A stretch of DNA of 22,880 nt, from positions 1 to 22,880 of the IMG/VR virus record IMGVR_UViG_3300035162_000478; one strand, written 5' to 3'. This stretch comes from a virus. The position numbers and the translations under genes were made by a program. The first letter of the stretch is position 1; each line of letters begins with the position of its first letter. The notes beneath the pieces were generated by a model. That model saw only the letters and a list, made by a program, of their open reading frames with translations. It had not been told where the DNA came from and searched no databases. This document shows positions 14,090 through 21,779 of this stretch, one piece after another.

Positions 14090-15085
14090 TTATGCTACGA
14101 GGATGCCTGAGAAATAAGATTCTGTGTCAATGTCACTTTGTGCAGTGCCAGTGCCTTGGACAAATTGAAGTTTAGCAGTATCACCTGCATCCATATCTGC
14201 TAATATACTGCTTCCGGGGTTATAGTACGTTGCCGCACCAAAGGCAAATATATTTGTATACGTTCTATTACTTGTAACAATTTTAAACTGATAATAATTA
14301 GCGTTTGAATCTATAGCATCTACACGCAATTGAAAGCTCAATTGATACCTTCCAGTAACAGGTGCTGTAAAGACTGAGGATGCAAAGTCAGCATTATTGT
14401 CAAAAACTTCCGTTCCAAATGCTATATCTACAGCACTACCTACAGCTAAATTAGCTTGCTGACTTGCAGGTGTAGCCAAAAACGCTGGCTGGGCTGGCTT
14501 GGTACATATGCCATTTTCATCCCACGCCATAGCTTGTGTACCACCCGCTATACCAAATGAAACAGTATCATTTGAGCCTGCGGCTGAAGCACCTTTAAAT
14601 GCCCACACTTCTTGACCACTAACAGTAAATCTAAGCAAATCAGCATTGTCGGCAGCCTGAATATGTAACGGAGCAGTAGGTGCGGCTATGTTTATGCCTA
14701 CAAATCCATCAGAACCTTGCACAAACACAGCATGTGTCTGGTTGTCTGACTCAACACGGAAATCTACATCAGCGGATGACTCGTTTATAACAACAGCGCC
14801 ATCTAAGGTAGTAGTACCAGTAAACGTCTGGTTAGCCACCTCAAATGGTGTATAACTAATAATGTCACAAACGTCATCAGCACTGGCAGCTACACCTAAT
14901 ACAACATCACTACCATTAGTAGCTGTGAAGTCAGCAGGGCTAAGGTGTGAGCCATTTAGGTACACGTCTACGAACTGTGCAGTGTAACCTGCAGTGTTAA
15001 ACGTAGTCTGCCCTTCAGTACAGGTAAAACTTTCCCTGTGTTGCGTAGCCTGTGGGACAGGTGTACTGCCTATATATCCTGACAT
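14090..15085 (-). CDS. Tail fibre with C1q-like C-terminal domain
   Basis: This encodes 331 residues. The N-terminus MSGYIGSTPVPQATQHRESF, followed by FVDVYLNGSHLSPADFTATNG (about 1-60), is a known virion-attachment module of marine phage fibres. Residues about 85-190 are strand-rich fibre shaft with VGINIAAPTAPLHIQA. The C-terminal 135 residues (about 198-331) look like a C1q/TNF-like trimeric head. They contain AFLATP, then VFDNNADFASSVFTAPVTGRY and a final ESYFSGILV, the usual ends of this fold. The domain would form the trimeric tip and bind a surface ligand. The start overlaps nothing; the 103-residue gene ends seven bases upstream. The C1q call is by pattern only. Confidence 0.78.
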   Translation of the reverse strand: MSGYIGSTPVPQATQHRESFTCTEGQTTFNTAGYTAQFVDVYLNGSHLSPADFTATNGSDVVLGVAASADDVCDIISYTPFEVANQTFTGTTTLDGAVVINESSADVDFRVESDNQTHAVFVQGSDGFVGINIAAPTAPLHIQAADNADLLRFTVSGQEVWAFKGASAAGSNDTVSFGIAGGTQAMAWDENGICTKPAQPAFLATPASQQANLAVGSAVDIAFGTEVFDNNADFASSVFTAPVTGRYQLSFQLRVDAIDSNANYYQFKIVTSNRTYTNIFAFGAATYYNPGSSILADMDAGDTAKLQFVQGTGTAQSDIDTESYFSGILVA

Positions 15086-16776: not shown

Positions 16777-19098
16777 TTATCCTAATGCAATCGCCAAAGC
16801 CGTAATGTCACCTGTTGTAGCAATAGTACCTGCTGCTGCAGGTAAAGTCAAGGTCACATCTGCTGTAGATGCAGGCCCGATTAGTGTTACTTTATTACTT
16901 CCGTTATCACTATCTTCAAAAAACTCAATGAAGCCTGCACCTGTAGCTCCATTCTTTACTGAGACACCTGCATTAGCTATTGGCTTAGCAGTGAATGTAC
17001 CTACACCTGTAACAAGGAGTGTACTTGCTATGTCAACTGCACCGTCTATGTCTACAGCACCACTAATATCTAGTGTAGCTGCATCTAACTCACCAGTTAT
17101 GGTAAAGTTACGAATACCTGTGTAGTCTTTATTTGAGTCTAGTATAACAGCTTTAGAAGCTACAGCAGTACCAACAGCAGTGCTGCCAATGTCTAGTGCG
17201 TTTAACTCACCTACGACTGCAGTAATACCGTCTAATGCGTTTAGTTCTGCTGCAGTAGATGTCACTCCATCTAAAATGTTTAACTCTGCAGCGGTAGATG
17301 TAACACCATCAAGAATATTAAGTTCAGCAGCAGTAGAGGTTACACCATCAAGTATGTTAAGTTCAGCGGCTGTAGATGTAACACCGTCAAGAATGTTTAA
17401 TTCAGCAGCAGTACTGGTAACACCATCTAAGATGTTTAACTCTGCAGTAGTGCTAGTAACACCATCAAGTAAATTTAATTCTGTAGCTGTTGAAGTTACC
17501 GCTACATTCTCATTAATTTTAGGTGACGTTAAAGTTTTGTTCGTAAGTGTTGCAGTAGAAACTGTTGACACTATTGTACCGTTACCACCATCAGGTAGTA
17601 AAAGAGTGTTCGTTGCACCTTGAGAGTGTGGCGCACCTTGTAGTGTTTGGGCATGAGCATTTGAACTTTCACAGTAGAATAAAATCTGTGAAGCTGTACC
17701 GCCATTCTTTAGGTCAATTTTACCAGTATCAATACCAACATTACCATCAATCATAACAACGCCAGAGCCATTGGGTGTTATAGCAATATTACCATTAGAT
17801 GTAGATGTTGTAATACCACGGGCTTGAACATCTAAGTCACCCCCTAGTTGTGGGGTAGTGTCTTCAACAACGTTAGAGATAGCAGCAGAAGTAGCAAGAC
17901 CAGATACAACGGCACTTCTTGCAACTTTTTTAAGGCCACCGCCTGATGTATCAATAGCTAAGAATACGTCATCATTTGCAATGGTACTTATCTCTGATAG
18001 ATCACCAACAGCAGTAGGATTAAAGTTTGTACCATCAGCAATAAGAAGCATACCAGAAGTGTTAGTTCCCATAACTAGATCATCACCAGTTATAGTAAGG
18101 TCACCACCAACTACTAAGTTACCTGACACATCTACTGCACCGTTTATGTCAATAGAGGTAGCAGTTAAGTCAATTTCATCAGTAGCTGCAATAGATAATA
18201 CTGTTGCACTAGACCCTTGAATAAATTGACTTGCATCGTTAAATAATATTTTGTTTGTAGAAGCTATAGTTGTTGTAGCTGCAATGTTTACTGCACCATC
18301 AATGTCTACAATGTCTAAGTTTGTAGTACCATCAATGTCTACGTCACCTGATATATCTAAAGACGTACCTGTCAGTACTCCTGTAACACCTAGCGTACCT
18401 GTAATTGTAGCGTTCTCATCTATATCAAGAGTATCAATGTGCGCTGTGCCATCTACAAAAAGATTACGCCACTCTTGAGTAGCCGAACCTAGATCGTATG
18501 TATCGTCATCATCAGGTATAATGCTTGAGTCAACATCTGCACCAAATACAACATTGTCAGTTGCAGCATCACCAAGAGTAATTGTACCACCATTAAACGT
18601 TGTAGTACCTGTTACTGTAGCATTACCTGCAACTGTAAGGTTACCACCTACAAGTAAATTACCTGATACATCTAGTATACCATTAAGGTCAACAGTAGTA
18701 GCAGCAATCTGTATTTCTGTATCAGCTACGAGATCAAGTTGACCATCAGCAGATGAGTGAATGTAAATAGCAGTATCACGAAACTGTAGCTTTTCTGATG
18801 TAGCCATAAGGATATCATCTGAGAACGTAAAGTAATCCTCATCTTCACTCCAGATAAGCGCACCATTATTAGAACCACCGTCCCAAGTAAGCGTAATGTC
18901 ACCTGCACCAGTACCTATAGTAACATTGTCAGATGCCACTAAAGATATGGGGCCACCTTCTCCAGCAGTACCATCGTGAGTGTGACCTGTGCTAACAGCA
19001 AAGGCAGCTAGGAGTTGGTCAAATTCATTATTAAACAGATCAGCGGTAATAACATCGCCATCAGTAAAGGTTGATTGTCTTGTGTATGTAGCGCCCAT
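16777..19098 (-). CDS. Main tail fibre with 13-residue tandem repeats
   Basis: This encodes 773 residues. The N-terminus (about 1-50) has DGDVITADLFNNEF, then GHTHDG and GEGGPI, a known podovirus fibre attachment pattern. A long strand-rich shaft follows, with repeating phrases such as DVSGNLLVGGNLTVAG, DISGDVDIDG and SLDISGD, which suggest a beta-helix-like or triple-stranded shaft. Residues 534-624 hold seven copies of VTSTAAELNILDG (13 residues each) and one degenerate copy after them. The C-terminus ends AAGTIATTGDITALAIALG, like many fibres that stop at a 'GTIATTGD' module. ATG 19098 comes directly after the stop of the 583-residue neck gene with no gap. It is probably the main host-binding or connecting fibre. 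Confidence 0.82.
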   Translation of the reverse strand: MGATYTRQSTFTDGDVITADLFNNEFDQLLAAFAVSTGHTHDGTAGEGGPISLVASDNVTIGTGAGDITLTWDGGSNNGALIWSEDEDYFTFSDDILMATSEKLQFRDTAIYIHSSADGQLDLVADTEIQIAATTVDLNGILDVSGNLLVGGNLTVAGNATVTGTTTFNGGTITLGDAATDNVVFGADVDSSIIPDDDDTYDLGSATQEWRNLFVDGTAHIDTLDIDENATITGTLGVTGVLTGTSLDISGDVDIDGTTNLDIVDIDGAVNIAATTTIASTNKILFNDASQFIQGSSATVLSIAATDEIDLTATSIDINGAVDVSGNLVVGGDLTITGDDLVMGTNTSGMLLIADGTNFNPTAVGDLSEISTIANDDVFLAIDTSGGGLKKVARSAVVSGLATSAAISNVVEDTTPQLGGDLDVQARGITTSTSNGNIAITPNGSGVVMIDGNVGIDTGKIDLKNGGTASQILFYCESSNAHAQTLQGAPHSQGATNTLLLPDGGNGTIVSTVSTATLTNKTLTSPKINENVAVTSTATELNLLDGVTSTTAELNILDGVTSTAAELNILDGVTSTAAELNILDGVTSTAAELNILDGVTSTAAELNILDGVTSTAAELNALDGITAVVGELNALDIGSTAVGTAVASKAVILDSNKDYTGIRNFTITGELDAATLDISGAVDIDGAVDIASTLLVTGVGTFTAKPIANAGVSVKNGATGAGFIEFFEDSDNGSNKVTLIGPASTADVTLTLPAAAGTIATTGDITALAIALG
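17227..17499 (-). repeat. Seven tandem 39-base repeats in the fibre gene
   Basis: The units are exactly in frame, 39 bases each, at 17461-17499, 17422-17460, 17383-17421, 17344-17382, 17305-17343, 17266-17304 and 17227-17265 in reading order. Four central units (17266-17421) encode the identical VTSTAAELNILDG. The outer ones differ by one or two residues. A degenerate eighth unit (ITAVVGELNALD) follows at 17188-17226. The identical protein units differ at many third codon positions. Confidence 0.92.
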
Positions 19099-20850
19099 TT
19101 AACGTCTTGCTCCTAATGTATATTCTAACTGAAAACCTTTAAGTGAGTAAGGTGCAGACTCACCCCCATCATTTATTCTAAGTACAACAGAAAACCCTGA
19201 ACCTTCTACTGATTGTCTTACCAAAGGTTGCGAAGGCCCCCCAAAAACAAACCTAACAGAACCACCTACAGTACTAAAGGTAGCTAATCCAAACTGTGCA
19301 GCTACATCAGAAGAAGATAAAGTATACGCTGCAGGTCTAGTTGAGCCTGAATCTTCATTGTCGTACCGCATTACTAATTCTGCATTAAGCGCAGACTCAG
19401 GTTTATAGTTAATAATAACCCTTTGCATATGCTTTCGTATGCCAGTATCTCCAAACGCCATGTCAGAGCTTCTGTATTTTCCTAGTACGGGTGTGCCATC
19501 AAAGGTATTACCTTTGTCTTGCCTATGTATATGACCAGCAAAGTCACCATGAAGAACTATAACATCACCTGCCTTAACAAAAGTATCTGTACAAGAAGGT
19601 TTTATCCCACGCATTTCAGAAAATTCAAAACCTTGTTCTCTTGCAACGCAAGTAACACCTCTTGTAATACCGTCAGACTCATCATTTTTAGTAAAGAATA
19701 TTCTGTACTGTGTCTTGTCGGGTATAACAACACTTTCAAATAACAAAGAGTCTTTAATGTTTTTATCAAATATAGACTGTACGTTTTTACTTATTGTACC
19801 TAGTTCAGTGTCACCAATCTTTGCAGTAGCAGCAACTGTCCGTAAACCGTCTGGCCCAAGAAATACTAAGTCACCACCAAATTCTTGTATAGTATCCCCG
19901 TTAATGCAACCAATGTTTCTAGTAACAGGTACTATAGAAAAATCACTAGATGTATTTCCTGTTAGTTTAAATATTCTATTTTCACAAAATATAAACAACG
20001 CATCCCGAAATACTTTTAATCCCGTAATAGTGTCGTCTACTCTAATAGTACCTGCACCATCACTGCTAGTAAAATCGTCTTCATTAGATGGCACACTAAA
20101 ATTAAGTAGTTCTGGTGTAGTTGATTTACCTGCGTAAAACATATGAGACTTAAAAGATGCTACAAAACTAGAACCTACAATAGCTGTTGTACTAACGTCT
20201 GTTGCACTAAGAGCTAAATTAAAAACTACAGGAGCGTTAATACCATCTACACATACAAGTTTAGGGTTGCCATCATAGTTAAATCTTTCAAACCTATACT
20301 TACTAGCATTAGTTCTACCTGTATCTATTTCCGTCCAAGGTGAGGAAACAACTACCCTAGAAAAATGTGCTGCAGCCGTAGTGCTTTCAGTAGCACGTGT
20401 TACTCCCGTAAACTCATTAGGAGTTGACGCAGCATCTACGCCTGTGTAGGTAAAAAGTTCTAAGTCTAATTGCAAAGTACCGCTAGTTGCAAATCCTGCA
20501 ACAGAGTCTACAGTAATTGTACCAGAACCAGACATAGTTGTATTAGCAGCTATACTAGATGATAGCTCTGTAGATGCAGCAGAGAATATTTTCTCACCTC
20601 TGCAAGCCACAACCTTGTCACCAAATTTAGCTACCCCAATTACCTTTTCATTAATACTAGTAGTATGAGGTACTACATGATTGACATACCTACGGTATCC
20701 ATTCATTCTCCTATAGCCACCCTCAACGTCAGGTTCAAAGTTTTCTAATACTAAAGCCTCTCCCGGTTTCATAAGAAAGGAAGAACGATTTAATACTAAA
20801 CCACCCTCACAGTTAAATGCCGCTGGTTGTACTTTAGAACTATCAACCAT
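19099..20850 (-). CDS. Neck/tail stem protein, tail tubular protein B-like
   Basis: This encodes 583 residues, nearly all strand-rich. It begins MVDSSKVQPAAFNCEGGLVL, then MKPGEALVLENFEPDVEGGYRRMNGYRRY (two parts, 27-55), the usual start of the beta-propeller-like stem protein found after the adaptor in marine podoviruses. The repeated 'F.....V..G..I' strands to about 320 also fit this. A beta-rich module (about 102-168: GTITVDSVAGFATSG, LFTYTGV, FTGVTRATESTTAAAH) interrupts the chain and is shared with the previous protein. The C-terminal part (about 420-583) has YSLKGFQLEYTLGARR at its end. The start overlaps the adaptor stop as TAATG. It would sit in the short tail or neck. Confidence 0.72.
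   Translation of the reverse strand: MVDSSKVQPAAFNCEGGLVLNRSSFLMKPGEALVLENFEPDVEGGYRRMNGYRRYVNHVVPHTTSINEKVIGVAKFGDKVVACRGEKIFSAASTELSSSIAANTTMSGSGTITVDSVAGFATSGTLQLDLELFTYTGVDAASTPNEFTGVTRATESTTAAAHFSRVVVSSPWTEIDTGRTNASKYRFERFNYDGNPKLVCVDGINAPVVFNLALSATDVSTTAIVGSSFVASFKSHMFYAGKSTTPELLNFSVPSNEDDFTSSDGAGTIRVDDTITGLKVFRDALFIFCENRIFKLTGNTSSDFSIVPVTRNIGCINGDTIQEFGGDLVFLGPDGLRTVAATAKIGDTELGTISKNVQSIFDKNIKDSLLFESVVIPDKTQYRIFFTKNDESDGITRGVTCVAREQGFEFSEMRGIKPSCTDTFVKAGDVIVLHGDFAGHIHRQDKGNTFDGTPVLGKYRSSDMAFGDTGIRKHMQRVIINYKPESALNAELVMRYDNEDSGSTRPAAYTLSSSDVAAQFGLATFSTVGGSVRFVFGGPSQPLVRQSVEGSGFSVVLRINDGGESAPYSLKGFQLEYTLGARR
20347..20547 (-). other. Inserted beta module, copy 2, in the stem protein
   Basis: The module spans residues about 102-168 of the 583-residue protein. 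The key pattern is TITV.S..GF..SG, then a YTG segment, FTGVTRATESTTAAAH, and VVVS. It matches the copy in the adaptor gene (21207-21410). Confidence 0.7.
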
Positions 20851-21779
20851 TAAAAGGAGATTCCAATATTATAGTTACTAGGTCTGTATATAACAGTTGA
20901 CCTAACGTATTCGTATTTATTTACAAGAAGACTTTGTACATTCTTTATGCCTTGTTCAAAACGTACAAAGTTTGTATTGTACTGATCTAGTTCACCACGG
21001 TACTGATACACAAATGCTGTAGCTCCATCCACAATAATTGGTGAAAACCTATCAGGTATGCTAGTAATATCTCCGTGTGCAGCTAAGTCACTTGGAAATG
21101 TATAGTAGTCAAATACTAATGAGTACTGTTTATCAGGTAAAGGATATAGTAAATAATTATTATCTGGAGTACGTACAATAAATTGAGGTACTCCACCATT
21201 TGTAAAGAGAGCTACCTGTGTAGCCGTAACGTGGGATGCAGCAGTAGTGCTGTTAGCACCTCTAGTACACCCAGTAAAAGTAGTAGATGTAATACCTGTA
21301 TAAGATATTTGCTCACCTAGTATAAAGATAACTCCAGTAGAAGTAAAGCCTGTGGTACTTGCTACGGTAACTGTAGTAGCACTATCTGTTAATGCACCAT
21401 CTAATGTTGTAGTTTCTACTTCATCTTCTTGAGTAGCAAAGCCCCTACTAATATATTCATTATAATCTAGCTTTGTAAGATTACCACCTGAAGTATTAAG
21501 GTCAGTATCTTTTTTTATTCTAGCTGTATTATAATCAATATGTTTAGTACTAGTAGGTACAGTATACCTAACAGTACCGGGAACTAACGTAGAAGTATTT
21601 GTTACATGATTAAAAGGGTAGCCAAATTCTTTTTGATTAATATATCGTATAGATTCATTAACAGCATTTTGACATTGTATTTGCACACCTCTTGCATCTG
21701 CAAAGGTAGCAGCAGTAAGAGCAACTTCATTCATACGAGTTATAACATCGTTAGTTAATGAAAGATATGTCAGGGCCAT
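20850..21779 (-). CDS. Head-tail adaptor, tail tubular protein A-like
   Basis: This encodes 309 residues. It starts MALTYLSLTNDVITRMNEV, with a four-helix-like N-terminal part (about 8-50) holding AVNESIRYINQKEFGYPF, then VPGTVRYTVP (66-75) and IDYNTARIKKD. The second half contains PLPDKQYSLVFDYYTFPSDL, then IPDRFSPIIVDGATAFVYQYRGE and LLVNKYEYVRST. This is the pattern of the adaptor (gp11-like) protein of marine podoviruses that joins the portal to the tail stem. Residues about 124-191 are an inserted beta module not expected in that family, also found in the next gene. AAGGAA is upstream of ATG 21779. It ends as TAATG with the stem gene. Confidence 0.78.
   Translation of the reverse strand: MALTYLSLTNDVITRMNEVALTAATFADARGVQIQCQNAVNESIRYINQKEFGYPFNHVTNTSTLVPGTVRYTVPTSTKHIDYNTARIKKDTDLNTSGGNLTKLDYNEYISRGFATQEDEVETTTLDGALTDSATTVTVASTTGFTSTGVIFILGEQISYTGITSTTFTGCTRGANSTTAASHVTATQVALFTNGGVPQFIVRTPDNNYLLYPLPDKQYSLVFDYYTFPSDLAAHGDITSIPDRFSPIIVDGATAFVYQYRGELDQYNTNFVRFEQGIKNVQSLLVNKYEYVRSTVIYRPSNYNIGISF
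21207..21410 (-). other. Inserted beta module, copy 1, in the adaptor protein
   Basis: The module covers residues about 124-191 (TTLDGALTDSATTVTVASTT, then GFTSTG, ISYTGI, FTGCTRGANSTTAASH). It stands between two halves that match the adaptor family. The same module occurs in the next gene. Confidence 0.72.

Follow-up and report, generated by a model that had tools for sequence, protein, structure and literature searches.

Two adjacent neck proteins of a marine phage, the adaptor and the stem protein (nozzle), carry stretches that look like the same small beta module, which raises the question of how one domain came to lie in two different ring proteins and what it may do there. The locus lies in a stretch of 22,880 nt, here called the window, from a virus record. 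Of the named phages, Puniceispirillum phage HMO-2011 is the nearest relative, and further matches were obtained with Roseobacter CRP phages and Pelagibacter phages; therefore, the window was assigned to an HMO-2011-type phage. A search for a virion structure of any HMO-2011-type phage found none, and to our knowledge neither a ligand nor a receptor nor a virion structure has been described for any of these phages. HMO-2011-type phages are counted among the dominant marine phages (PMC9038755).

The neck region is encoded on the minus strand: besides the terminal part of the major capsid gene and one small gene, it holds the adaptor gene, the stem gene and fibre-like genes (Table 1). The fibre-like protein adjoining the stem contains about seven tandem TAELNILDGVTS-type repeats in its C-terminal half. 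Elsewhere in the window, a structural protein (14090-15085) has a C1q-like domain at its C-terminus (Pfam C1q, 6.2e-6), possibly the head of a trimeric fibre. The gene at 792-2696 encodes a ribonucleotide reductase with a match to the insertion domain found in class II (B12-dependent) enzymes; a 65-aa ORF (2029-2226) overlaps this gene in another frame.

Table 1. Location of the neck proteins, their domains and the two module copies in the window
Feature	Position	Strand	Remark
Source virus record (G000)	22.9 kb
Fibre-like protein adjoining the stem	16777..19098	minus
Stem/nozzle with predicted beta-propeller (P22 gp10 / SU10 gp17-type), 583 aa	19099..20850	minus
Beta module, stem copy, residues about 99-171	20338..20556	minus	HMO-2011 has a short turn KVYKAATGSGAWTQID there
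Adaptor (SU10 gp11 / T7 gp11-type ring protein), 309 aa	20850..21779	minus	Profile and fold matches
Predicted beta-rich domain of the adaptor, residues about 58-230, holding the module	21090..21608	minus	Predicted secondary structure
Beta module, adaptor copy, residues about 121-193	21201..21419	minus	Replaces a turn of about 5 residues in HMO-2011

The identity of the two carrier proteins was assessed by profile searches and by AlphaFold2 models with a mean pLDDT of 82 for the adaptor and 86 for the stem (about 88 and about 94, respectively, in the module part). The adaptor matched Pfam SU10_adaptor (9.5e-13, 49.5 bits versus a cut-off of 27), with residues 4-276 aligned to positions 2-176 of the model, i.e. 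on both sides of the module, as well as the tail protein family phrog_10775 (8.8e-36). Its model resembled the adaptors of A4 (Z 15.7) and SU10 (Z 13.3), with GP4 also within Z 13-16. The predicted elements follow in the order helical (5-49), beta (58-227) and C-terminal helical (243-293), and by this order the beta domain would be the counterpart of the fibre-dock domain of T7 and SU10. The stem matched phrog_5107 (1.4e-72), a family labelled 'amidase' (lysis), and related records are labelled 'dimodular nonribosomal peptide synthetase'. Over most of its length, however, the stem model resembled the nozzles of Pa223 (Z 27.2), SU10 (gp17, Z 24.6) and P22 (gp10, Z 23.6), and it shows the predicted beta-propeller and platform of a P22 gp10 / SU10 gp17-type nozzle. 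Both labels therefore look like misannotations.

In the earlier note, residues 124-191 of the adaptor (21207-21410, minus strand) and residues 102-168 of the stem (20347-20547, minus strand) had been described as copies of one beta module, and both the identity of the module and these coordinates were borne out exactly. The local BLOSUM62 alignment of the two segments scored 107, compared to a shuffle mean of 38.7 (SD 6.5, z = 10.5), and this score was reached by 0 of 5000 shuffles. Sequence comparison thus confirms two homologous copies of a module of about 70 residues. Searched with a module profile whose rows include both window copies themselves, the window yielded these two copies (4e-31 and 6e-26, without stops) and no third one; in particular, the profile search detected no module in the adjoining fibre-like protein. 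The matching DNA that had also been reported amounts to a single piece of 45 bases (E = 0.002), which is weak to negligible, so the likeness reflects homology of proteins rather than a recent duplication of DNA.

For the adaptor module the model predicts a small barrel, six-stranded according to its structural matches. Residues 121-192 superposed on the VP1 capsid protein with Z 10.8 (rmsd 1.6, 71 aligned residues); a literature search for a paper on the VP1 phage found none. The next matches were a JBD30 baseplate chain (8rk3_b, residues 415-558; Z 10.2, rmsd 1.9 over 74 residues, 24% identity), the Mystique tail tube (Z 9.2) and the Chi distal tail protein (8vjh_B, residues 234-310; Z 8.2). 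The N-terminal barrels of F1-ATPase (Z about 7), the match that bears on a RIFT-type topology, were below the trusted range, and the I-domain of P22 gp5 (residues 226-343; Z 7.0, rmsd 2.7) had a Z within the range of chance arrangements. Chain 8rk3_b is probably the JBD30 hub, since its 727 modelled residues fit the 735-residue hub, and residues 415-558 would then be hub domain VI. At the sequence level, JBD25 proteins were used in place of those of JBD30, whose chains they match end to end with near-identical hubs, and the best match of the module profile in the JBD25 hub (535-553) lies inside the structural range and is statistically insignificant. No credible chain was found when the profile was searched against the sequences of solved structures in the PDB. 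The expectation of a shared fold holds in so far as the stem copy has the same predicted strand order as the adaptor copy (at a pLDDT of about 94); the match to barrels of virion proteins covers the whole adaptor module, and the stem module is linked to it by strand order. Additionally, a fold search of the BFVD matched part of the adaptor, likely the module, to a membrane-associated protein of Bodo saltans virus (A0A2H4UVI4, 30% identity).

That the module is an insertion, as had been suggested from the continuation of the adaptor family on either side, was confirmed by comparison with HMO-2011, whose adaptor aligns to residues 1-112 and 195-308 with about 10 residues between. Both HMO-2011 proteins are without the module (adaptor 238 aa, stem 502 aa). 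Among the closest IMG/VR relatives, 80 of 80 adaptors carry it, and so do their stems wherever the locus extends far enough. Presence of the module by descent in all related adaptors, which would have spoken against an insertion, is hence true only inside this nearest clade, and wider relatives vary. In the wider IMG/VR collection, the module was found in neither protein at 97 loci, in both at 68, in the adaptor only at 28 and in the stem only at 21, with a second stem copy at 8 loci; in these counts a few of the cases without it may be truncated proteins and one contig may count twice. On a core tree built without the insert columns, presence changed at least 4 times in the adaptor and at least 8 times at the first stem site.

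Close pairs of loci (denoted by L numbers) differ mainly in the module, by a clean insertion or deletion, at each of the sites: the stem module in L107/L109 (88% DNA identity outside the gap), the adaptor module in L169/L105 (74% DNA identity) and the second stem copy in L043/L034 (90% DNA identity). Close relatives without one or both modules have otherwise almost unchanged proteins; the core ring proteins do not need either module. All four combinations of presence and absence occur among loci holding both proteins. For INDEPENDENCE of the two copies, 7 independent contrasts with a change at the stem were available, in which the state of the adaptor mostly stayed constant, so the adaptor and stem modules need not match. 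The suggestion that the two surface domains match each other across neighbouring rings is thereby not supported. In the raw counts, genomes with both copies were in excess (Fisher p 3e-4), but the excess vanished once kinship was respected.

The module is not confined to this pair of proteins. Its matches in PHROG are to families of the baseplate wedge, the tail fibre and virion structural proteins, and IMG/VR loci were found with the module in proteins of these kinds. Two further carriers are an SU10-type adaptor of another sort (L278, Pfam 4.5e-35) and another nozzle-like family (L261, L276), whose proteins each contain two or three copies. The second stem copy of L043 lies, by predicted strands, in the connector of blades 2 and 3, the site of the SU10 nozzle-domain insertion. 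One further stem (L302, 1099-3573, plus strand) carries the module four times, including a tandem pair close to where the propeller ends, and its third copy resembles the generic rather than the stem type. The positions G, E, Y-T-G and T-G-x-T-R hardly vary in any of the carriers, and the module sequence diverges faster than the carrier proteins. With homologues in baseplate, fibre and other neck proteins, the module is best described as a widely circulating insertion domain at permissive loops. Five copies searched against Pfam matched no family and no carbohydrate-binding (CBM) family. Single modules searched against phages by tblastn gave nothing for the adaptor copy or the L143 copy, and weak matches to Synechococcus myoviruses only for the stem copy; the poor yield is probably due to the short threonine-rich queries, which are hard for BLAST.

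Regarding the origin of the two copies, it had been proposed that one arose from the other or that both came from a fibre. In the module tree, all adaptor copies formed one group (99/88) and the main-lineage stem copies another (100/99); the tree is based on 76 columns, too few to settle the relation between the groups. The AU test rejected neither a joint clade of these two groups (AU p 0.79) nor the union of all first-site stem copies in one clade (AU 0.42), and therefore neither an order of events nor separate acquisitions are claimed. The idea that one gene had recently received its copy from the other by duplication was discarded in view of the negligible DNA match and the separate supported groups. 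The derivation from a fibre was right in spirit, as the pool of modules includes fibre and baseplate proteins.

The explanation preferred here, tentatively and with somewhat less than an even chance, is that of a circulating, dispensable barrel inserted at permissive loops, the copies of which are accessory surface patches in contact with the cell envelope. In this view a small beta-barrel circulates among the virion proteins of tailed phages and enters permissive, probably outward-facing loops. One copy would lie in the beta domain of the adaptor, at the position of the T7 and SU10 fibre dock, and the other in an outer hairpin of the nozzle, by the predicted strands the C-D hairpin of its first complete propeller blade. 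When the adaptor and stem alignments were compared as profiles with SU10 gp11 and gp17, the similarity was too weak for residues to be mapped, and the placement relative to the fibre docks therefore follows the predicted order of elements. From the ring sizes of T7 and SU10, the virion would display 12 adaptor copies and 6 nozzle copies, which may act as accessory patches touching the host envelope. Among the functional readings, contact with the host surface is the most likely role, put forward as a candidate; the near-invariant residues, being common to unrelated carriers, fit maintenance of the fold as well as a shared ligand.

The main rival, on balance unlikely but to be taken seriously, is that the barrels are structural cement, packing on a neighbouring subunit or on the next ring and thereby stabilising the neck. 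The best structural matches of the module are barrels of virion proteins, and in SU10 and T7 the adaptor ring is in contact with the stem ring. Furthermore, domain VI of the JBD30 hub, a small six-stranded barrel, has been described to contact domain VII and to lend stability to the baseplate (PMC11445458), in favour of a structural role. Cement of this kind is, however, difficult to reconcile with close relatives that lack the module although the remainder of their stem gene is 88-90% identical in DNA, with independent changes at the two sites, and with a module that diverges faster than the core, not slower.

It is improbable, though consistent with part of the data, that the module rides along as a passenger, neutral or under weak selection: a common, well-folding domain dropped by recombination into tolerant loops and kept or lost by drift. 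The repeated changes of presence (at least 4 and at least 8), the several different loops and carriers affected and the spread over unrelated virion proteins would all be accounted for, but not the retention of the module in both proteins throughout the nearest clade, including all 80 closest adaptor loci. Together with the near-invariant residues, this retention points to purifying selection on the module fold in that clade.

A very improbable alternative is that the modules are docking sites for a fibre or decorating protein. In T7, adaptor and nozzle each bear a fibre dock with the fibre between them (PMC6702177), and in the window the adaptor copy would lie in the domain equivalent to that dock. 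However, gains at the adaptor and stem sites are uncoupled, and over its first 100 residues the adjacent fibre is 100% identical between L169, with the module, and L105, without it, and 93% and 94% identical in L107/L109 and L043/L034, respectively. The identity of the fibre N-terminus thus tracks that of the cores, which it equals or exceeds in the three pairs, so a dock required by the adjacent fibre, as the earlier note had also considered, is unlikely; docking of some other protein is conceivable.

Of the readings considered, a dispensable surface domain facing outward, probably at permissive loops by the predicted models, is the best, and the module looks like an interchangeable decoration of the surface rather than an essential part. 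Other insertions occur at the same rings. Several related adaptors, including that of HTVC033P and those of a sister group of the window clade, are without the module and have a longer insert at an earlier loop. Such inserts were seen in L002, L193, L224, L229, L231 and L241, that of L229 resembling CBM_4_9 (7.6e-5, just below the Pfam cut-off), and none of the adaptors seen has both the module and an insert at the earlier loop. At the first stem site or close to it, the stems of HTVC115P, HTVC104P and CRP-345 have beta inserts of other kinds. A broader proposal, which we hold to be doubtful, is that the adaptor and nozzle rings of HMO-2011-type phages are platforms with several insertion hot spots at which unrelated beta domains, among them the present barrel, a CBM_4_9-like domain and further beta inserts, are exchanged, giving a neck-borne secondary receptor-binding set that evolves independently of the fibres.

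The exchange of domains, best known from fibres and tailspikes, extends to the adaptor and nozzle rings, and closely similar necks with and without the module offer natural paired comparisons for the role of a barrel insert, be it in adhesion, in stability or in nothing. RIFT-related barrels are common to many structural proteins of phages and mosaicism reaches the neck proteins (Smug et al. 2023, PMC10684548). In the parts of that study consulted, a general pattern is described and no single phage with the same module in adaptor and nozzle was found; to this pattern the window adds one clear case from the neck.

Among known systems, the JBD30 hub is alike in that a small barrel, probably the structural match to the adaptor module, is added to a larger virion protein. 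It differs as a hub at the tail tip of a siphophage versus the neck of a podophage, with insignificant sequence similarity, and, unlike for the neck module, presence and absence between relatives have not been reported for its barrel. In the Chi distal tail protein a small barrel is likewise inserted in a ring-forming tail protein, but the carrier and the ring are others, and the binding role is a domain label given by the authors. The I-domain of the P22 coat protein is a six-stranded barrel inserted in a virion protein as well, although of the capsid and not of the neck. The fibre docks of T7 and SU10 are likewise beta domains, exposed on the outside of these two rings. Those docks belong to the ring protein itself, whereas the neck module is an extra insertion that many relatives lack, and the neighbouring fibre here has an N-terminus that does not depend on it.
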